Shown here: positions 1,179 to 14,528 of the stretch, piece by piece
Layout: each line of letters starts with the position of its first letter
Numbering within the stretch: position 1 is the first letter of the stretch
From: a virus
Length of the DNA: 64,000 nucleotides
Reading direction: 5' to 3' (one strand)
IMG/VR virus record: IMGVR_UViG_3300021440_000003
Location: 1 to 64,000 of that record
Notes under the pieces: generated by a model
Databases searched by the model: none
What the model was told of the DNA's origin: nothing
What the model saw: only the letters and a program-made list of their open reading frames with translations
Position numbers and translations under genes: made by a program

Positions 1179-1790
1179 ATGTCCGACCAACTCACCCCCG
1201 CCCAAGAAGCCCTTGCCGCCCCCTACGTGGCCAAATACACCGCCATTGGCCTGCGTACCACCCCCGAGAACACGCAAGACCGCACACTTGCAGCCAAGGC
1301 CGCTGAAGCCTTCTTGCGGGCTGACACCAACTTTGACCAGTCCCGCCCCTGCATCCACATCGACACCGCGTCCGACCCCGACCTCACACTTGCCCTCGGC
1401 CCCGACCACAAAGGCCAGGACATGAAGGCCATGTACATCGTGACCGGGACTTGGCCCCACTTGGTTGCCCTTGCCAAGAAATTCACAGGCAAGAACGACG
1501 TGTCAGACGCCTTCTGTGTCTCGCAGTACGCCGCCCACGCCCCGGCCCATGCCACCTTCATGCGGGACGTGCTTGGCGTCAAGGGCATTGACGTGCAGAC
1601 TGACGCCTTGGATGGCTTCTCTCGGCACTGCGGCGTCACCTTGATCTACGAAAAGGCCATCTTCGTTGGCGACCCACCTGTGGCCTTCAAGGAAACCGCC
1701 GATGGCAAGCTCGACCCGATCTACACGAACGCCGAGGCCCATCAAGCAGGCTTGACCACGCCTGAAGGCTTGCCCTTGGCCGATGCTTGA
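1179..1790 (+). CDS. Hypothetical protein
   Basis: This is a soluble acidic protein of 203 residues with no recognised motif, signal peptide or membrane segment. The start is preceded by AAAGGAACCAACC, a spacing and sequence also used before the MoxR gene. It lies in the early operon between the unknown gene at 607 and the MoxR ATPase. Confidence 0.7.
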   Translation: MSDQLTPAQEALAAPYVAKYTAIGLRTTPENTQDRTLAAKAAEAFLRADTNFDQSRPCIHIDTASDPDLTLALGPDHKGQDMKAMYIVTGTWPHLVALAKKFTGKNDVSDAFCVSQYAAHAPAHATFMRDVLGVKGIDVQTDALDGFSRHCGVTLIYEKAIFVGDPPVAFKETADGKLDPIYTNAEAHQAGLTTPEGLPLADA

Positions 1791-1990: not shown

Positions 1991-3025
1991 ATGTCCAAAC
2001 TCTCCATCGAACAATCCGCCCAAGCCATCCTTGCCTGCCCCGCTGTGACTTTCTCGCTCGAAGGCCCGCCCGGAGTCGGCAAAACTCACGGCATCTCCGC
2101 CCACTTGCGCGAAGCTGGCTACACCGTTCACATCATGCCTTGCCAGAACATCCCGGCCGAGGACACGGCAGCCTTGCCTGTGGTCAAGAAAAACGGGACT
2201 GTGGACTTCGCTACCCCCGAAATGTGGCACCCCGCACCCAAGACGGCCTTCATCCTTGACGAGTTGTGGAAAGCCCCGGACGACATTCTCAACGCCTTCT
2301 TGCCCATGGTGCACGGCTTTCCCCGCACCTACATGCACCATGAGTACCCCGAGGACACCATTGTTGTCGTGACCGGCAACGCTGCTGAGTTCCGTGTGGG
2401 AGACAAGTTCAAACCGCACATGGGCAACCGAGTGGTGTCCATCGAGGTGGATGACCCCACACTTGCCGAGGCCACGCAAGTCATGCTTGACCGGGGTGTG
2501 GATGCTCGCATCATCGAGTGGGTGCGTGTCAACCCGCAGGCTTTGAAGTCTTTTGATCCGCAGGCTCAGACGAGGCCCGAGACGGAGTTGATGAACTACT
2601 ACGGGTACGACCAGCGCCACCCCAAGCGCAAATTCTGCTCGATGCGCAGCTTGGAGCTTGCCTCCAACGTCATCAAGTCCGTGCCCGAGGGTGTGCGCCA
2701 GTCCTGCTTGCAAGGCGCGATCGGCCAGAAAGCCGCTTCCAACCTTGAACACTTCCTGCGCGAATCCGCAGAGTTCATCCCGCTTGCTGACATGGTGGAC
2801 GGGACCGCGAAAGTGCCCAAGCAACTGTTCGATCGACGGCTTGCTGCGATCACCGCAGCGTCCGGGCTTGACGAGAGCAACTGGAAGCAGCTGCTCAAGT
2901 ATGCGGAGCGACTTGGTTCGGAGTTGAAGCAAGTGTTCCTGCTGAACGCGAGCCGCAAGAAAGTGAGTGCCGACTTGCTGGTGAAGTCCCAGACGTGGCG
3001 AAACGAGCTTGCCGTGATTCTTTGA
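1991..3025 (+). CDS. MoxR-type AAA+ ATPase
   Basis: This 344-residue AAA+ protein has Walker A GPPGVGKT at residues 25-32 and Walker B FILDE at 87-91. The domain order fits the MoxR/RavA group, ATPases that usually work with VWA-domain partners to remodel proteins or insert metals. Its likely partner is the VWA protein at 4101. I chose the ATG at 1991 because of the ribosome site before it; in-frame starts near 1787 would run through an intergenic hairpin and another small gene. In this phage the ATPase-VWA pair is separated and flanked by tiny repeat genes. Confidence 0.88.
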   Translation: MSKLSIEQSAQAILACPAVTFSLEGPPGVGKTHGISAHLREAGYTVHIMPCQNIPAEDTAALPVVKKNGTVDFATPEMWHPAPKTAFILDELWKAPDDILNAFLPMVHGFPRTYMHHEYPEDTIVVVTGNAAEFRVGDKFKPHMGNRVVSIEVDDPTLAEATQVMLDRGVDARIIEWVRVNPQALKSFDPQAQTRPETELMNYYGYDQRHPKRKFCSMRSLELASNVIKSVPEGVRQSCLQGAIGQKAASNLEHFLRESAEFIPLADMVDGTAKVPKQLFDRRLAAITAASGLDESNWKQLLKYAERLGSELKQVFLLNASRKKVSADLLVKSQTWRNELAVIL

Positions 3026-3058: not shown

Positions 3059-3211
3059 ATGAGACTTGACAAGCCGAATGCTTATGTGTGGGACCAAGTG
3101 TGGGGCCAAGTGCTGGACCAAGTGTGGGACCGAGTGTGGGGCCAGGTGCGGGACCGAGTGCTGGACCAAGTGTGGGACCAAGTGCGGGAACGAATCAGGA
3201 GCAAACCATGA
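3059..3211 (+). CDS. Tetrapeptide-repeat small protein, A1
   Basis: The product has 50 residues: leader MRLDKPNAYV, nine tetrads of the W/L/R-D/G-Q/R-V or I type, then RSKP. Valine or isoleucine falls at residue 10 and every fourth residue to 46. The codons for I-R-S-K-P carry AGGAG, placed to act as the ribosome site of the next gene, and CCATGA makes a 4-base stop/start overlap with it. Function is unknown; I do not recognise the family. The W-rich repeats with alternating D and R look structured rather than disordered. Confidence 0.75.
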   Translation: MRLDKPNAYVWDQVWGQVLDQVWDRVWGQVRDRVLDQVWDQVRERIRSKP

Positions 3212-3396
3212 AACTTGACAAGCCTGGTGCTTATGTGCGGGACCGAGTGCGGGGCCGAGTGTTGGACCAAGTGTGGGACCAAGTGTGGGGCCAAGTGCTG
3301 GACCAAGTGTGGGACCGAGTGTGGGGCCAGGTGCGGGACCGAGTGCTGGACCAAGTGTGGGACCAAGTGCGGAACCAAATCAGGAGCAAACCATGA
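3208..3396 (+). CDS. Tetrapeptide-repeat small protein, A2
   Basis: The product has 62 residues: leader MKLDKPGAYV, twelve tetrads and RSKP. Its last eight or so tetrads match A1 almost base for base, so the pair differs mainly by three added units. The start overlaps the previous stop by ATGA, and its own end repeats the AGGAG-CCATGA junction. Confidence 0.75.
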   Translation: MKLDKPGAYVRDRVRGRVLDQVWDQVWGQVLDQVWDRVWGQVRDRVLDQVWDQVRNQIRSKP

Positions 3397-3635
3397 AACT
3401 TGACAAGCCTGGTGCTTATGTGCTGGGCCAAGTGTCGGTCCGAGTGCGGGACCAGTGCGGGACCGAGTGCGGGACCGAGTGCGGGACCAAGTGCGGGACC
3501 GAGTGCGGGACCGAGTACCGTACCAGATTCGGGACCGGGTGTGGGGCCAAGTGTCGGGCCGGGTGCTGGGCCAAGTATGGTACCCAGTGCGGGACCAAGT
3601 GCGGGACCGAACCAGGAGCAAGCCATGAGACTTGA
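3393..3635 (+). pseudogene. Tetrapeptide-repeat gene A3, shifted by one missing base
   Basis: The leader MKLDKPGAYV and the first tetrads are normal. Near 3451-3455 GACCAAGTG has become GACCAGTG. Translation then enters the C-G-T-K/E frame and stops at 3635, 11 bases into the next gene. Restoring one A would give VRDRV-type tetrads ending R-S-K-P with the usual ATGA overlap. It could be a decayed copy, an off state of a slipping tract, or a functional 80-residue variant. Confidence 0.65.
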
Positions 3636-3771
3636 CAACCCGAATGCTTATGTGCGGGACCACGTGTGGGACCAAGTGTCGTACCTAGTGTGGGACCAAG
3701 TGCGGGACCGAGTACCGTACCAGATTCGGGACCGAGTGTGGAACCAAGTGCGGGCCAAGTTATGTATATAG
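3625..3771 (+). CDS. Tetrapeptide-repeat small protein, A4
   Basis: The product has 48 residues: leader MRLDNPNAYV and nine looser tetrads (SYLV, PYQI, WNQV) ending L-C-I. The V/I/L spacing of four is unbroken from residue 10 to 46. A PYQI tetrad with the same bases occurs in the shifted A3 copy, showing common descent. It ends TAG without the R-S-K-P junction, and the next small gene starts 26 bases on. Confidence 0.7.
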   Translation: MRLDNPNAYVRDHVWDQVSYLVWDQVRDRVPYQIRDRVWNQVRAKLCI

Positions 3772-3796
3772 TGGTGGACCAAATCAATACCAAACC

Positions 3797-3943
3797 ATGA
3801 CACTATCCAACCCATACCGGCCCGGCCACTGGTCAGCGATGACAGCCCGTATCTACACCCTAAACAGTAACCTCTGGTTCTACACATCCCATCGCACATG
3901 GACCCCAGTGTGGGACCAAGTACGAGGACGAATATGTATCTAG
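3797..3943 (+). CDS. Divergent tetrad-family small protein, A5
   Basis: This 48-residue protein begins M-T-L-S-N-P and ends VWDQVRGRICI. The middle has lost the repeat sequence, yet L22, L26, V38, V42 and I46 fall in the same four-residue phase as the repeat copies. W27, W35 and W39 match the W phase, including the same three positions in the member at 6099. This argues that it is a real, conserved protein. Function unknown. Confidence 0.6.
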   Translation: MTLSNPYRPGHWSAMTARIYTLNSNLWFYTSHRTWTPVWDQVRGRICI

Positions 3944-4146
3944 GCGAACACAACAGGCACACCGTAGAACGGCTCAGCAGCAGAGTCTTATACGCATTGT
4001 TGGACATAGCGACCGATCAGATACCAAACCACGTGTGGAACCAATCCACCGAGATCACCTGGCAAGCCTGCTACCTAACAACCTCAACCATAAAAGCATC
4101 ATGTTTACTCAAGACGACCTCTCCAAACTCACAAAATCCCTCGTGA
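3934..4146 (+). CDS. Divergent tetrad-family protein, A6, overlapping the VWA gene
   Basis: The product has 70 residues and starts M-Y-L-G. It overlaps the previous gene by 10 bases and the VWA gene (start 4101) by 46. L14, V18, L22, A26, I30 and V34 keep the four-residue phase, with R or Q one residue before several of them and W35 and W43 in the W phase. The last 20 residues lie over the VWA start and look like an out-of-frame extension. Confidence 0.5.
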   Translation: MYLGEHNRHTVERLSSRVLYALLDIATDQIPNHVWNQSTEITWQACYLTTSTIKASCLLKTTSPNSQNPS

Positions 4147-5324
4147 CCCGCTTGCCACACATCGAACCCTTCCTGTTCGTCATACCTATGCGTGTCCTCT
4201 CACCCGAGGAGTACCAAGCCAAGATCCCCGCCCACCTCCCGCAGACGGCGGCTTGCACCTCGACCGAGTTCCTGTTCCAGTCGGAGTTCATCGCCCAAGC
4301 CCCCGCCCCGCAGCAGCGCGGCTTGATCTTGCACGAGATTCTGCACGGTGCGTTGGAACACTTGTCCCATCCTTGGCGTGACAAGACGATCACCGAGGAG
4401 TCATTCTTCCGCTTGCGCAACATCGCCCAAGACGTGGTGGTGGAGAACTTCGTGGCAGAACTGTCCGAAGCCGACCAGCCGGGGGTTAAACCTGCCGACC
4501 GGTACATTCAGAACTTCATGCCCTTGCCCGACAGCTACGCCAAGTACAAGGGCTGGAACTGGCGTGATGTGTACGAGGACTTGCGCTCTCAAGCCGATGT
4601 GCAGCCCAACGATTCATTCGACCACCACGGATACGGGGACGACAACACCCCCGAGGCCGCGCAAGCCCGAGCCGAGGCCGAACGCTTGTGGAAGTCCGCC
4701 CAGAAAGCCTCCGAAGCCGCCCGCCAAGCACTGGCTGGAAACGCCCCCGGCATCGACAACATCGCTATCACAGCGGCTGCCGAGAAGGTGCGCTGGCAAG
4801 ACACCCTTGCTGACTTCCTGCAATCCATCCCCAGCCCCGAGCGCAAGACTTGGACCAAGGTGCGCCGCCGCCCCTTCTGCACACGCCAAGAGTACCGCCC
4901 GTCCAAGACCGGGGAGCAGCCCGCCCTTGACCACGTGTACCTGTTCGTTGACACGTCCGGCTCCATGCACGGAACCTTGGCCACTGTGGCCGCCGACATT
5001 CTTGGCCTGATGCGGGCCGTCCAAGTCAGCACACTGGAGATTGTGTATTACGACGTGGGGGTGCAGCGCCGGGACGTGATCGACTTCGACGACATGGAAG
5101 GCTACACCATCACCTCCATGCCCGGAGGCGGAGGCACTGCCGTGCGCCCTGCCATGGAAGAAGTGGTTGGCAGCCCCGACTACGTGCAAGGTGCTCCGTT
5201 CGTGGTGTTGACCGACGGATACGACGATTACAACATCGGCAGCTTGCCCACCGGCCCACTTGTCTGGCTGTCCTATGAGAAGCCCGTAAACAGTGACCGG
5301 GGTGTGTCCTTGCTGGTCAAGTGA
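4101..5324 (+). CDS. VWA-domain protein with HEXXH metallopeptidase-like domain
   Basis: The product has 407 residues. An N-terminal region with a zinc-type motif HEILH (78-82) is followed by a linker and a C-terminal VWA fold with MIDAS motif DTSGSM (284-289) and a later LTDGYDDY. This matches the putative metallopeptidase plus VWA-like architecture (DUF2201 type). Such proteins pair with MoxR ATPases, here at 1991. The ATG at 4101 was chosen because earlier in-frame codons lie inside the small gene at 3934. The partner or substrate is unknown; the flanking tetrad genes are obvious candidates. Confidence 0.85.
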   Translation: MFTQDDLSKLTKSLVTRLPHIEPFLFVIPMRVLSPEEYQAKIPAHLPQTAACTSTEFLFQSEFIAQAPAPQQRGLILHEILHGALEHLSHPWRDKTITEESFFRLRNIAQDVVVENFVAELSEADQPGVKPADRYIQNFMPLPDSYAKYKGWNWRDVYEDLRSQADVQPNDSFDHHGYGDDNTPEAAQARAEAERLWKSAQKASEAARQALAGNAPGIDNIAITAAAEKVRWQDTLADFLQSIPSPERKTWTKVRRRPFCTRQEYRPSKTGEQPALDHVYLFVDTSGSMHGTLATVAADILGLMRAVQVSTLEIVYYDVGVQRRDVIDFDDMEGYTITSMPGGGGTAVRPAMEEVVGSPDYVQGAPFVVLTDGYDDYNIGSLPTGPLVWLSYEKPVNSDRGVSLLVK

Positions 5325-5331
5325 GGCTTAC

Positions 5332-5496
5332 ATGAGACTTGACAAGCCGGATAGAGAGGTGTGGGACCAAGTGCGGATTCCAGTGCGTATACAAGGGCGA
5401 TACCAATTGGTGCACCAAGTGTTGGACCAAGTGTGGGTCCAAGTGCGGGACCAAGTGTGGGACCAAGTGCTTGATAAACTAAGGAGTAAGCCATGA
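5332..5496 (+). CDS. Tetrapeptide-repeat small protein, B1
   Basis: The product has 54 residues: leader MRLDKPDREV, ten tetrads and RSKP. The early tetrads are irregular (RIPV, RIQG, RYQL) and the later ones regular. It starts just after the VWA stop and overlaps B2 by ATGA, with AGGAG inside its final codons. Confidence 0.72.
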   Translation: MRLDKPDREVWDQVRIPVRIQGRYQLVHQVLDQVWVQVRDQVWDQVLDKLRSKP

Positions 5497-5753
5497 GACT
5501 TGACAAGCCGAATAGTTGGGTGCTGGACCAAGTGTGGGTCCAAGTGCGGGACCAAGTGTGGGACCAAGTGCGGAACCAAGTGTGGGGCCAAGTGTGGGGC
5601 CAAGTGTGGGACCGAGTGTGGGGCCAAGTGCAGGGCCAAGTGTGGGACCGAGTGTGGGACCAAGTGCGGGGCCAAGTGCAGGACCAAGTGTGGGGCCAAG
5701 TGTGGGGCCGAGTGTGGGGCCGAGTATGGCCCCTAATTAGGAGCAAGCCATGA
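5493..5753 (+). CDS. Tetrapeptide-repeat small protein, B2, longest copy
   Basis: The product has 86 residues with eighteen consecutive tetrads between leader [10 protein letters not shown] and IRSKP. V or I occupies residue 10 and every fourth residue to 82 without a break. It shows how far the array can expand while staying in frame. A slight excess of R and K near the end is the only charge bias. Confidence 0.75.
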
Positions 5754-5848
5754 GACCTGACAAATCGGATGCTTATGTGCGGGGCCAAGTGCAGGGCCAA
5801 GTGTGGGTCCAAGTGTGGGACCGAATCGAAGGCAGGTATGAGACTTGA
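5750..5848 (+). CDS. Tetrapeptide-repeat small protein, B3, short copy
   Basis: The product has 32 residues: leader [10 protein letters not shown], four tetrads, then EGRYET. The end reads through the next start in the other frame and stops after 11 shared bases. AGG in the G-R-Y codons is the only ribosome-site-like sequence for B4. Confidence 0.65.
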   Translation: MRPDKSDAYVRGQVQGQVWVQVWDRIEGRYET

Positions 5849-6020
5849 CAAGCCGAATGCTTATGTGTGGGACCAAGTATGGTACCCAGTGCAGGACCTG
5901 GTGCGGGGCCAAGTGTGGTACCCAGTGTGGGGCCAAGTGCAGGACCAAGTGCAGGGCCAAGTGTGGGTCCACGTGCGGGTCCAAGTGTGGGACCGAATCG
6001 AAGGCAGGTATGAGACTTGA
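5838..6020 (+). CDS. Tetrapeptide-repeat small protein, B4
   Basis: The product has 60 residues: leader MRLDKPNAYV, eleven tetrads including WYPV twice, and the EGRYET ending shared with B3. The identical last 30 or so bases of B3 and B4 suggest duplication of the junction. It overlaps B5 by 11 bases. Confidence 0.7.
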   Translation: MRLDKPNAYVWDQVWYPVQDLVRGQVWYPVWGQVQDQVQGQVWVHVRVQVWDRIEGRYET

Positions 6021-6102
6021 CAAATCGGATGCCCGAGTGCAGGACCTGGTGCGGGGCCAAGTGTGGGTCCAAGTGTCGGACCTAATCAGGAGCAAGCCAT
6101 GA
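6010..6102 (+). CDS. Tetrapeptide-repeat small protein, B5, short copy
   Basis: The product has 30 residues: leader MRLDKSDARV, four tetrads and RSKP. It ends with the standard AGGAG-CCATGA junction into the divergent member at 6099. Confidence 0.65.
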   Translation: MRLDKSDARVQDLVRGQVWVQVSDLIRSKP

Positions 6103-6251
6103 GACTTGGACACCGGAATCTGGCCTCATGGAGCAGACTAAGAAGCCAGATATTGAGTATATCCGGTGATCTATCGTGGAATAAATCATCTACATTTATA
6201 TGGTCAGACGTGTGGCTTAAAGTATGCAAACGACTCAATAGCAAACCATGA
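6099..6251 (+). CDS. Divergent tetrad-family small protein, B6
   Basis: The product has 50 residues, begins M-R-L-G and ends with the repeat-type tail S-K-P and CCATGA. The centre is rich in S, L and I and has no tetrapeptide repeats. Even so, residues 10, 14, 18 and so on to 46 read S, L, I, S, S, S, I, V, V, L, and W11, W27, W35 and W39 sit in the W phase. Base composition is more A+T-rich than the repeat copies. It links the repetitive and non-repetitive members. Confidence 0.6.
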   Translation: MRLGHRNLASWSRLRSQILSISGDLSWNKSSTFIWSDVWLKVCKRLNSKP

Positions 6252-6405
6252 AACTGGAAAACCTTACGCTAACATCCACTTGTGGGACCTTATCCGATAC
6301 CCAGTTATGGAACAAGTTGCAGACAGCATCCGCTCGCAAGCCCGAACTTGCACTAGGTACCGGGTGATTAGTGTGGTGTGGCAGAAAGTATGGATACAAG
6401 TATGA
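6248..6405 (+). pseudogene. Divergent tetrad-family gene B7, shifted near its start
   Basis: From the ATG at 6248 the frame gives only 39 residues, to 6367. One base missing in CTGGAAAACC explains this. After it, the next frame reads P-Y-A-N-I then WDLI, RYPV, MEQV and onward to WIQV, ending at 6405 with the ATGA overlap. The four-residue spacing holds across that frame. Confidence 0.55.
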
Positions 6406-6545
6406 TATGCGGTAAGGGCATAGGTAGACTTACTCATACCTTAGTTTGGCGTAAGGTACCAGATTTATCCATAGTACTACTATTCTTCAGGTCAATTGGC
6501 TCGCAAGTAGAGCAGAGGATATATGGAACTTCACTATCCCTATGA
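6402..6545 (+). CDS. Divergent tetrad-family small protein, B8
   Basis: The product has 47 residues with a hydrophobic centre (IVLLFF). The I/V/L spacing is only partly four (V15, V19, then I24, F28, I32, V36, I40). Stop and start overlap neighbours on both sides by ATGA, and that continuity is the best evidence it is translated. Confidence 0.4.
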   Translation: MICGKGIGRLTHTLVWRKVPDLSIVLLFFRSIGSQVEQRIYGTSLSL

Positions 6546-6670
6546 TGGCATTTTCGGGCGTATATGGACAGGTATCCGTCTAGTTACACCTTACATGGTA
6601 CATTACCACGGGCAAAAACTGGTGCAATACCCCACGGCCGGAAGCGTATGGGCTATAACAAGGAGAGATC
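6546..6670 (+). other. Unresolved stretch of the small-gene array
   Basis: An ATGA overlap at 6542 opens a 13-residue frame with V-Y-G-Q-V that stops at 6583. Reading past this TAG would reach 6658. A competing 55-residue frame runs 6564-6731 without family features. The stretch may be a member broken by a nonsense change. AAGGAG at its end is the ribosome site for 6671. Confidence 0.35.
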
Positions 6671-6829
6671 GTGGCACTTGGTAATCATTCACCAACGCCA
6701 ACAATCGACTCCTTTTGGAGTCGAGTATTAAGGCAGGTAGTGAGGCAAGTCCGTATCCCAAGGCGAAGTCAAGTATACGACCTTGTATCGGACAAGATAT
6801 TCTACGTGATAGCGGCAAAAATTCTATGA
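6671..6829 (+). CDS. Divergent tetrad-family small protein, B10, GTG start
   Basis: The product has 52 residues from a GTG placed five bases after AAGGAG. The second half reads V-L-R-Q-V-V-R-Q-V and later V-Y-D-L-V. Hydrophobic residues fall at 15, 19, 23, 27, 35, 39, 43, 47 and 51, a clear period of four. It ends with ATGA into the next member. Confidence 0.55.
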   Translation: MALGNHSPTPTIDSFWSRVLRQVVRQVRIPRRSQVYDLVSDKIFYVIAAKIL

Positions 6830-6969
6830 CTCTAGGACAAAGCGACAGGGCGTACCTGTCATCCATCTTCTACGGTATTCGTGCAGCCACAACAACATTA
6901 GGCCGCGATCTAATTCAAGTCCCAATCTTCGCTAAATGCTTTCTAGGAGTTAAACATGAAACTAGGTAA
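6826..6969 (+). CDS. Divergent tetrad-family small protein, B11
   Basis: The product has 47 residues, starts M-T-L-G like the member at 1836, and ends K-H-E-T-R. I14, I18, I30, I34 and V42 are in the family phase. AGGAG in its final codons serves the next start, and the two genes overlap by 14 bases. Confidence 0.5.
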   Translation: MTLGQSDRAYLSSIFYGIRAATTTLGRDLIQVPIFAKCFLGVKHETR

Positions 6970-7081
6970 ATACAAACTGCCCATCGAGCTTTCATTCAGT
7001 GACCTACTGTACTGGTGGGAGCCGATGCTAGACTTGTCCCACGACCTGTACCACGCCAGCCTTAAAGGACTCAAGAAGTGA
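6956..7081 (+). CDS. Small protein at end of array, B12
   Basis: The product has 41 residues, starts M-K-L-G-K after AGGAG, is tryptophan-containing and acidic in the middle, with a basic end. Only I10, F14 and L18 fit the four-residue phase, so family membership is uncertain. Its TGA overlaps a GTG start at 7078. Confidence 0.45.
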   Translation: MKLGKYKLPIELSFSDLLYWWEPMLDLSHDLYHASLKGLKK

Positions 7082-11045: not shown

Positions 11046-11183
11046 ATGGACAAGATGATTCGCACCAACTACTACTTCCCGCGCCAGATGCTAGACGCGC
11101 TCAAAGCCGCAGCGGAGAAGCACGGGTTGCCAATCAGCGAGCTCATTCGCCGTGCAATCACGGAGTGGCTAAAATGCAACTGA
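11046..11183 (+). CDS. Ribbon-helix-helix (CopG/Arc-like) protein
   Basis: The product has 45 residues: a short beta strand (MIRTNYYF) followed by helices QMLDALKAAAEKHG and ISELIRRAITEWL, the classic RHH layout. These proteins bind DNA as dimers and usually repress their own operon. It overlaps tnpB by 10 bases and has a -10-like TATGAT at 11033-11038, so it probably controls tnpB expression. Confidence 0.65.
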   Translation: MDKMIRTNYYFPRQMLDALKAAAEKHGLPISELIRRAITEWLKCN

Positions 11184-12210
11184 CCTACAAGTTCCGTTTA
11201 CGTGATACCTGCGACAGTGAACTTCGCAGGCAAGCCCGCTCCGTCAACCTTGTTTGGAATTACTGCAACGAACGCCAGAAGGAAGCCGTCAACAAGGGAC
11301 GCAAATGGCCCAGCAAGTACGACTTGCAAAAGTTGACAGCAGGAAGCTCGAAAGAACTTGACATACACGCGCACACCATTCAGGGTGTTTGCCGCAAGTA
11401 CGACGACAGCCGTAGGACACACAAGAAAGCCTCCCTGCGCTGGCGTAGCAACAAGAAGTCGCTCGGTTGGGTGCCATTCAACCAAGGCACCGTAAGGTAC
11501 AGCAATGGGTCGTTCTGGTTCCGTGGGCGCGAATACAAGGCATGGGTCAGCCGCGACCTCCAAGAAGGTAAGACGTTTGGGGCTGGTTCGTTTAATCAAG
11601 ACTCTCAGGGTCGTTGGTATATCAACCTGCCCGTAAAAGTCGAATGCTTGCAAACCGCACAAGGCGACGCCATTGGGGTTGACCTTGGTCTAAAGGAATT
11701 GGCTGCAATCAGCAACGGAAGCAAGATTGAGCACCCTACTCACTACCGCCGCATGGAGCAGCGCATTGCCACGGCTCAGCGAGCAAAGAAAAAGAAGCAA
11801 GTCAAAAAGTTGCATGTCAAGGTAAAAACCAACGCAATGACTTCTTGCACAAAGAATCAACCAAGCTGGTAAAGCAGCATGGTGCGATATTCGTCGGCAA
11901 CGTAAAGCCATCCGCCATCGCCAAAACCCGCATGAGTAAATCAGCACTCGATGCTGGTTGGGCAATGTTTAAGCAGAAACTTCAGTACAAAGCCATTAGG
12001 CATGGAGTTATGTTTGCGGAGGTCAACGAAGCCTATTCAACCCAGACCTGTTCTTCATGCGGAAGCGTGGAGGGGCCGAAAGGTGTCGCAGGCCTTGGAA
12101 TAAGGCGATGGACGTGTAGTTGTGGCGCGGAACATGACCGCGACACAAACGCTGCACAGAACATTGCCCGCAAAGGACTATTTGCGCTTGCAGAAGGAGC
12201 CTCAGCATGA
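11174..12210 (+). pseudogene. tnpB: TnpB-like RNA-guided nuclease gene, one-base frameshift
   Basis: Frame one gives residues from MQLTYKFRL to the RuvC-I motif IGVDLGLKEL and stops at 11872. The rest, ending with a zinc ribbon (CSSCG and CSC) and RuvC-III HDRDTNAA, is in the -1 frame from about 11825 to 12210. A shortage of one A at GGTAAAAACC joins the halves exactly. Where canonical TnpB has the RuvC-II glutamate, this protein has FVGNVKPSAI. A glutamate in EVNEAYST just before the zinc ribbon could substitute. It is dead, expressed by slippage on the A-run, or catalytically rearranged. Confidence 0.75.
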
Positions 12211-13325: not shown

Positions 13326-14528
13326 ATGCACCGCGCCCACAAGATAAAACTGCAACCAACAAAGGCTCAAGAGCAATACCTTGCTCGCGCCTGCGGTGTG
13401 GCTCGGTTTGCATTTAATTGGGCATTGGCTGAGTGGAAAAAAGACTACGAGGCTGGTGGCAAGCCGTCCGAAGCGGCGTTGCGCAAGAAACTTAACAGCA
13501 TTAAGGCGACCGAGTTTCCGTGGATGGCGGATGTCACCAAGTGCGCACCGCAACAAGCCATCAAGAACGTCGGTGCCGCATTCCAGCACTTCTTCCGGCG
13601 TGTCAAGCAAGGCGGAAAACCTGGCTACCCTAAGTTCAAACGCAAAGGCCAACACGACAGTTTCCGTGCCGACAACGGGCCTGCTGACGCCAACAGCAAT
13701 GCCGTGGAGTGTGACGGCAAGACCATCAAACTGCCACGCTGTGGCACGGTCAAGATGCGCGAGTTGTTGCGCTTCTCTGGCCGCACACTGTCTGCCACCG
13801 TTAGCAAACAAGCCGATGGCTGGTATGTCACCGTTTTGGTTGACACCTCAGACATGCTGACTGGCCCCTTGGGTGGGGGCGTTGTTGGCGTTGACCTCGG
13901 CATTAAGAATCTGGCGGTGCTAAGCACTGGCGAAGTGCTGGCACCGCTCAAACCGCACCGCGCCTTGCACACCCGCTTGGTGCGTTTATCCCGTAGTCTC
14001 AGCCGCAAGAAAAAAGGCAGCAGCAACCGAGCCAAAGCGAAAACCAAGCTGGCAAAGTTGCACAAGCGTATCGCGGACATCCGTGTTGATGCGCTGCACA
14101 AGCTGACCAACCGTCTTGCAACTGAGTTTGACACCATCGCCGTTGAAGACCTGAACGTGAAAGGAATGGTGCGTAACCGCCACCTTGCCCGCAGCGTGTC
14201 CGATGCTGGGTTTGGCGAGTTCCGCAGCCAGCTTGCATACAAGTCTGCAATGACTGGTGCATCAGTTTTTATCGTAGACCGCTTCTACCCATCGAGCAAG
14301 ACATGCTCTGCGTGCGGCGAAATCCATGATATGAAGCTGAGCGACCGTGTGATGGTGTGTGACTGCGGCAACGTGATGGACCGCGACCTGAATGCGGCCA
14401 TAAACCTAAAGAACAAGGCGGTCAGCTTGACCGTTTCAGCCTGTGGAGAGGATGGCTCTGGCCGTGGTAGCAATACCGCGACGAAACCAACCTCTATGAA
14501 GCAGGAAGATTTGGCTGCATTGTGTTGA
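13326..14528 (+). CDS. tnpB: IS607 TnpB RNA-guided nuclease
   Basis: The product has 400 residues. It keeps all three RuvC acids: D in VVGVDLGIKNLAV, E in IAVEDLNVKGM and D in MDRDLNAA. A zinc ribbon (CSACG and CDCG) lies between the last two. This family cleaves DNA guided by an omega-RNA transcribed from the right end of the element. It starts four bases after tnpA. Intact motifs make activity likely. Confidence 0.9.
   Translation: MHRAHKIKLQPTKAQEQYLARACGVARFAFNWALAEWKKDYEAGGKPSEAALRKKLNSIKATEFPWMADVTKCAPQQAIKNVGAAFQHFFRRVKQGGKPGYPKFKRKGQHDSFRADNGPADANSNAVECDGKTIKLPRCGTVKMRELLRFSGRTLSATVSKQADGWYVTVLVDTSDMLTGPLGGGVVGVDLGIKNLAVLSTGEVLAPLKPHRALHTRLVRLSRSLSRKKKGSSNRAKAKTKLAKLHKRIADIRVDALHKLTNRLATEFDTIAVEDLNVKGMVRNRHLARSVSDAGFGEFRSQLAYKSAMTGASVFIVDRFYPSSKTCSACGEIHDMKLSDRVMVCDCGNVMDRDLNAAINLKNKAVSLTVSACGEDGSGRGSNTATKPTSMKQEDLAALC

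Follow-up and report, generated by a model that had tools for sequence, protein, structure and literature searches.

Among phage proteins built from tetrapeptide repeats, the described case found in the literature is Tweety gp54. Its counter-defence, directed at Phrann and MichelleMyBell, is tuned by the number of repeats (PMC9262239, PMC8549241), and in these repeats the third codon positions are invariant and the first and second vary (PMC2884959). Arrays of small genes encoding such repeats may conceivably have been described earlier; a literature search, with subscription journals mostly outside its reach, gave no mention of DUF6745, DUF4816 or the motifs reported below in a phage context. 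Here we describe an array of this kind in a 64 kb stretch (hereafter the window) of the 72.4-kb IMG/VR virus record IMGVR_UViG_3300021440_000003, which also encodes siphovirus-type tail genes, DNA polymerase, primase and helicase. The array consists of short overlapping genes (mini-genes) whose products are made almost wholly of tetrapeptides (tetrads).

Such arrays recur beside genes of the DUF6745 family, and array and DUF6745 gene together point to a protein system of two parts that diversifies fast and is so far undescribed. An uncharacterised phage and bacterial family is thereby tied to a striking architecture, in which the repeat is carried either in one protein or in numerous small, variable products of overlapping genes.

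Anatomy and coding status of the mini-genes

Nine tetrad-repeat mini-genes were found at two sites, 3059–3771 and 5332–6102 (n, number of tetrads):

3059..3211, + strand, tetrad mini-gene 1: 50 residues, n = 9, RSKP tail
3208..3396, + strand, tetrad mini-gene 2: 62 residues, n = 12, RSKP tail; ATGA overlap, AGGAG 6 nucleotides (nt) upstream
3393..3628, + strand, tetrad mini-gene 3: frame shifted by a 1-nt deletion near 3451; the downstream frame, 3455–3628, consists of tetrads and is open to RSKP
3625..3771, + strand, tetrad mini-gene 4: 48 residues, RAKLCI end
5332..5496, + strand, tetrad mini-gene 5: 54 residues, n = 10, RSKP tail
5493..5753, + strand, tetrad mini-gene 6: 86 residues, n = 18, RSKP tail; modelled with AlphaFold
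5750..5848, + strand, tetrad mini-gene 7: 32 residues, RIEGRYET tail
5838..6020, + strand, tetrad mini-gene 8: 60 residues, RIEGRYET tail
6010..6102, + strand, tetrad mini-gene 9: 30 residues, n = 4, RSKP tail

The common plan is a leader of about nine residues (mostly MRLDKPNAY), a run of V-[WRLQ]-[DG..]-[QR] tetrads and usually an R-S-K-P or R-I-E-G-R-Y-E-T ending. The leaders vary between MRLDKP, MKLDKP, MRLDNP and MRLDKS, with MRPDKS at 5750. The original prediction for this locus had counted about 17 such genes, of which the nine above are true tetrad genes and about eight proved to be diverged or unrelated small genes; the array is moreover split by a 407-residue DUF2201/vWA gene at 4101–5324. 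The near-identical leaders noted at 3059, 3208, 3393, 3625, 5332, 5493, 5838 and 6010 were all recovered, and that at 5750 was added. The plan of leader, tetrads and tail holds for the true copies with the exception of 3393, where the copy leaves the tetrad frame through a deletion that may be either true decay or an assembly error. The lengths of the RSKP copies follow the predicted rule of 14+4n, with 50, 62, 54, 86 and 30 residues for n = 9, 12, 10, 18 and 4.

A 12-nt repeat under the array was called by Tandem Repeats Finder, and period-12 identity was 0.62 at 3059–3771 and 0.61 at 5332–6102 (z about 21 against shuffles). The signal was weak (z 2–3.5) in the small genes at 3797, 3934 and 6099–7081. 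A Pfam comparison gave DUF4816 (PF16086) at 27.6 bits, below the gathering cut-off of 29.4.

Consecutive mini-genes in the window overlap at stop and start by 4 nt (ATGA, in most cases) or 11 nt. The codons of the RSKP tail, ATC AGG AGC AAA CC, include an AGGAG at a distance of 6 nt from the ATG that follows, and an AGGAG encoded in this way precedes the starts at 3208, 3393, 3625, 5493, 5750 and 6099. The ribosome site of the following gene, held in these codons, would thus account at least partly for the conservation of the R-S-K-P tail. Copies ending in RYET supply GAAGG-type sites, and the ribosome site of the first mini-gene (3059) is not clear. Arrays of other phages follow the same coupling logic with other tails, mostly without a strong AGGAG; their genes overlap by 4, 8 or 14 nt or lie 4 nt apart. 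A single message probably spans all the window mini-genes.

The contigs nearest to the window all came from metagenomes 3300022743 and 3300022745. A relative with flanks 85–91 % identical, contig L128, carries the array at the same two places with mini-gene number and lengths altered, the copies re-sorted and the frame mostly kept, which answers the suggestion of the original prediction that related phages be searched. All seven of its R-S-K-P-type copies have lengths in one class modulo 4. Array turnover is fast, with leader, frame and tail kept in most copies.

An open tetrad frame proves little by itself, because the 12-nt unit lacks stops in several frames. Coding was assessed from stop codons: a single G-to-A change turns TGG (tryptophan) into a stop and does not do so for CGG, AGG or GGG, and units were counted without requiring an open frame. 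In array regions of many phages, TGG had become a stop in 1 of 168 cases, against 31 of 180 other NGG codons changed to NAG or NGA (p = 6.5e-9). For the window and L128 only, the counts were 0/78 and 11/66 (p = 1e-4), and for tetrads within large proteins 0/151 and 15/317 (p = 0.004). These counts show that the tetrad frame is under selection as coding sequence.

Within the tetrads, Val and Gln are fixed and the middle two residues vary, mostly nonsynonymously. Nonsynonymous (pN) and synonymous (pS) change was compared between co-evolving repeat units, so that the values are relative measures and not tree-based dN/dS. The Val codon varies mainly synonymously: it was variable in 22 loci, and in 18 of these pS was above pN. 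At codon 3 pN was the larger in every one of the 36 loci analysed, as it was at codon 2 in most of them. The variation falls at first and second codon positions, third positions being near-fixed in most loci. Fixed Val and Gln combined with nonsynonymous change at the middle residues appears to imply selection for diversity. The earlier idea of a repertoire of in-frame length variants is in keeping with the purged stops, coupled starts, quantised lengths and re-sorting in L128; it is incomplete in that the variants differ also at two hypervariable residues.

The same tests bear on whether the array is a minisatellite, selfish or neutral, with open frames that simply follow from a stop-poor 12-nt unit. 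Such a unit is indeed open in several frames, overlapping and antisense open reading frames (ORFs) included, and its copies have recently duplicated, mini-genes 1 and 2 sharing 99 identical nt. A minisatellite does not account for the stops purged from the tetrad frame, the purifying selection on the Val codon, the conserved leaders and coupled starts, or the same-strand proximity to DUF6745 that recurs in unrelated phages with different codons, and we consider it very improbable. Still less credible is a DNA or RNA element (an iteron-like origin or an RNA structure) that acts without proteins. The unusually constant third positions within each array would suit it; against it, Rfam gave no match, the same tetrads occur inside DUF6745 proteins, and the unit varies among phages at the DNA level (for example GTC-TGG-GAT-CAA and GTT-CGG-AAC-CAA) with the tetrad conserved.

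Distribution and linkage to DUF6745

A search of IMG/VR by leader pattern recovered tetrad arrays in the window's own lineage only. The array region had no match by megablast, and tblastn of a mini-protein against isolate phages gave none, a search limited by the low-complexity filter. When IMG/VR was searched with a DNA pattern for tetrads, arrays with unrelated leaders were found, including MNSVK (L047), MTPIK (L039), MKSVK (L082, L087) and MTLSEEQIQPV (L064), with runs of 5–25 units in the arrays examined. In dozens of viral contigs the mini-gene arrays adjoin DUF6745 genes; the array is thus not a one-off, and the original prediction had overlooked the DUF6745 gene that goes with it. The same tetrad type was also found within long proteins bearing Pfam DUF6745 (PF20530), inserted after the N-terminal part and ahead of the DUF6745 domain.

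DUF6745 was detected in 45 of 55 tetrad loci and 1 of 65 controls (Fisher 5e-22), using a hidden Markov model (HMM) of ten DUF6745 proteins encoded outside the window, for which ten of the tested tetrad loci supplied the seeds. A second scan, with a DUF6745 DNA signature independent of tetrads, returned 114 loci, of which 49 had internal tetrads, 33 had free mini-genes (one an edge artefact) and 32 had neither (13 cut at the stretch end). Internal tetrads and free mini-genes occurred together in none of the 114 after removal of readings that overlap the DUF6745 gene; four apparent cases of both were rejected as such overlaps, being other-frame readings of the internal repeat. In 43 loci holding 204 mini-genes, 195 of these lay on the DUF6745 strand, typically less than 500 nt away. 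Several loci are near-duplicates, so independent cases are fewer than these counts. L297 and L358 have the largest arrays, 18 mini-genes apiece, in which most overlaps are ATGA. The matches listed from GTDB genomes (at least 19 loci) were all of the internal form, and free mini-gene candidates there were rejected as chance simple repeats without DUF6745. Taken together, the counts show that the mini-gene arrays are genetically linked to DUF6745.

The internal tetrads of DUF6745 proteins vary in flavour, with SSL, DSV, GQL and GSL types (L271, which is cta39025, L272, L281 and L286) and W, R or G usually kept at one variable position. A second DUF6745 gene beside the array of L054 (3534–4532) starts with a different S-V-x-G repeat (GSVAGSVTGS), and gp174 of Microcystis phage LMM01 (L270:3407–4540) is a DUF6745 protein without tetrads.

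A small gene resembling phrog_27831 is present at 103 of the 151 DUF6745 loci; the 74 loci without DUF6745 all lack it. It is common to the DUF6745 module rather than defining, being absent from about one-third of DUF6745 loci. Its product has a conserved AHSETGHDH/GEVTGHHH motif (L068:1416–1769, L087:2214–2561, L064:3424–3750).

The window has one gene of the family:

1179..1790, + strand, diverged DUF6745-family gene: 203 residues without internal tetrads, aligning with the first half of the family; putative partner for the mini-proteins

This was the only HMM match among 690 window ORFs (E = 2.3e-7), and hhalign aligned it with the DUF6745 family over 147 columns (probability 96, E = 3.6e-9). 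Against Pfam PF20530 it fell below the detection cut-off, giving no Pfam match. The gene is thus a diverged DUF6745 relative that lacks the C-terminal half and is not a Pfam member. The first array starts about 1.3 kb downstream on the same strand, so the window combines free mini-genes with a tetrad-free DUF6745 gene.

The linkage can also be read as an effector system, in which DUF6745 is toxic or acts on the host, the mini-proteins are its diverse regulators or neutralisers, and the form with internal tetrads regulates itself. Close same-strand adjacency, the mutual exclusion of the internal and free forms, and the restriction of the phrog_27831-like gene to loci with DUF6745 are in line with this. 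We regard it as quite improbable, since no toxin-like domain or active site was recognised in DUF6745 and neither PADLOC nor NCBIfam gave a DUF6745 match.

Predicted structure and proposed function

AlphaFold modelled the 86-residue mini-protein as a single helix over residues 8–83 (mean predicted local distance difference test, pLDDT, 87.5; predicted template modelling score, pTM, 0.40), and on this model the mini-proteins would be helical rods. A Foldseek search with the rod returned nothing usable, and the W residues showed no clear order or helical periodicity along it. A sequence match of the mini-protein in the PDB was rejected as low-complexity GQ repeats. The DUF6745 protein of L082 was modelled with pLDDT 94.6 and pTM 0.83 and had few matches in BFVD, to phage proteins only, the best annotated as DUF6745. 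In the form with internal tetrads, these are inserted near the loop between DUF6745 helices 63–73 and 79–85 and join two well-folded parts.

The reading that we favour is that the mini-genes are translated, with coupled starts and stops, into short V-x-x-Q rods that act in trans with the DUF6745-family protein, here encoded just upstream of a MoxR gene; elsewhere, in bacteria as well as in other phages, such a rod would be part of the DUF6745 protein and act in cis. Unequal recombination between 12-nt units would gain or lose whole tetrads, and selection would hold Val and Gln and favour change at the middle two residues, so that the phage would carry a shifting set of rods of different lengths and surfaces. 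Rods and DUF6745, probably in physical cooperation, would bind other proteins in phage–host or phage–phage conflict, and turnover of the repertoire would retune the target. A role in conflict, which the tetrad diversity may serve, is proposed because of the Tweety gp54 precedent. We consider this reading as a whole plausible, if short of probable; if it is true, phages would possess a molecular weapon or shield of the repertoire type. A more specific version, an anticipatory repertoire, seems rather unlikely: each mini-gene would set its own order of the two variable letters, W/R/G/L and D/N/G/A, along a rod whose Val and Gln are invariant and which is shown in trans to DUF6745, with up to 18 recognition variants per genome and new ones arising by 12-nt slippage.

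Several points weigh against the proposal. DUF6745 is an uncharacterised family, with no fold match for it in the PDB by Foldseek (best E 0.85) and none in PADLOC. AlphaFold readily makes helices from repeats, the pTM of the rod is only 0.40, and D, G and N, found at the third tetrad position, are poor helix formers. The window copy of DUF6745 is truncated and divergent, the third gene of the module, the phrog_27831-like one, has no homologue in the window, and some arrays (L009, L024, L049, L067, L086, L105) lacked DUF6745 in the sequence examined. Tweety gp54 itself, with its AA-x-x units, would be an analogue, its likeness being one of pattern and not demonstrated homology.

Under a housekeeping role, the rods would serve a DUF6745 complex as scaffolds or as spacers of adjustable length (rulers), in phage assembly, replication or metabolism, and array turnover would be a tolerated consequence of repeat instability and not an arms race. 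The predicted helical rod, the bridging of two folded DUF6745 parts by internal tetrads, the presence of tetrad-bearing DUF6745 also in bacterial genomes and the lack of a clear W pattern would all suit a spacer. A pure spacer should not, however, favour nonsynonymous over synonymous change at codon 3, as all 36 loci do, nor does it need a set of up to 18 different copies, and we judge this role somewhat unlikely.

Neighbouring genes and comparison with known systems

The remaining features around the array are as follows:

1991..3025, + strand, MoxR-like AAA ATPase: phrog_1297, E = 1.5e-28; between the DUF6745 gene and the first array
3797..3943, + strand, diverged small gene (MTLSNP..VWDQVRGRICI): weakly alignable to L128
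3934..4146, + strand, diverged small gene (MYLGEHN..): 70 residues, 62 % identity to L128 7852–8046
4101..5324, + strand, DUF2201 metallopeptidase–vWA protein: PF09967 2.5e-10, PF13203 1.6e-6; pN/pS 0.10 against L128
6099..6251, + strand, diverged mini-gene (MRLGHRN..RLNSKP): 50 residues; tetrad DNA gone, leader, tail and overlap retained
6248..6829, + strand, small overlapping ORFs at 6248, 6390, 6523 and 6671 (uncertain): period-12 z = 3.5 only
6826..6969, + strand, small gene (MTLGQSD..): 47 residues, conserved in L128, pN/pS 0.46
6956..7081, + strand, small gene (MKLGKYK..): 41 residues, conserved in L128, pN/pS 0.14

The last two genes are under purifying selection relative to L128. Among array loci, a MoxR gene near the array was found in the window's own lineage only, and MoxR and vWA were rejected as general members of the module, being unlinked to arrays elsewhere. 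The two genes lie close together in other phages (e.g. phCDa, L130) and are parted here by the first array. An N4-like identity, suggested by the MoxR/DUF2201 pair, was rejected because the window has siphovirus tail genes and no giant RNA polymerase was seen among its ORFs. By eye, the genes at 11174–11737 and 13326–14528 resemble those of TnpB/OrfB-type transposon nucleases, the first matching L128 at 73 % identity.

Among described systems, the MoxR–vWA (metallopeptidase) pair of jumbo phages (PMC7824862) is of the same kinds as the genes flanking the first array, and the resemblance concerns these neighbours only. A diversity-generating retroelement was rejected, with no RVT_1 match in the 72.4-kb record and positive controls. 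The small phage proteins phrog_5189 and phrog_33514 gave weak, repeat-driven matches to the tetrad stretch, and no array or function is described for them. DUF6745 proteins with internal tetrads (prophiGD102-1 gp38, cta39025 and bacterial homologues) share with the arrays the type of tetrad, for instance V/L-[WRG]-[DGA]-Q, and the pattern of variation; they differ from the window in that the tetrads are fused into one large protein, with no mini-gene array.

The original prediction knew of no described phage system built in this way. This stands for the arrays, which were not found described in the literature searched, and needs qualifying by Tweety gp54, a known length-tuned tetrapeptide-repeat protein, though not an array. 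Tweety gp54 is a single gene of Ala-Ala-x-x units with unique N- and C-terminal domains, outside any array and without DUF6745, whereas the mini-proteins have no such terminal domains and add to the tetrads only a leader and a short tail. Like the arrays, gp54 is built from 12-nt, tetrapeptide repeats with two fixed and two variable residues and an NGG codon at a variable residue, and in both the number of repeats changes, which in gp54 is functionally decisive.

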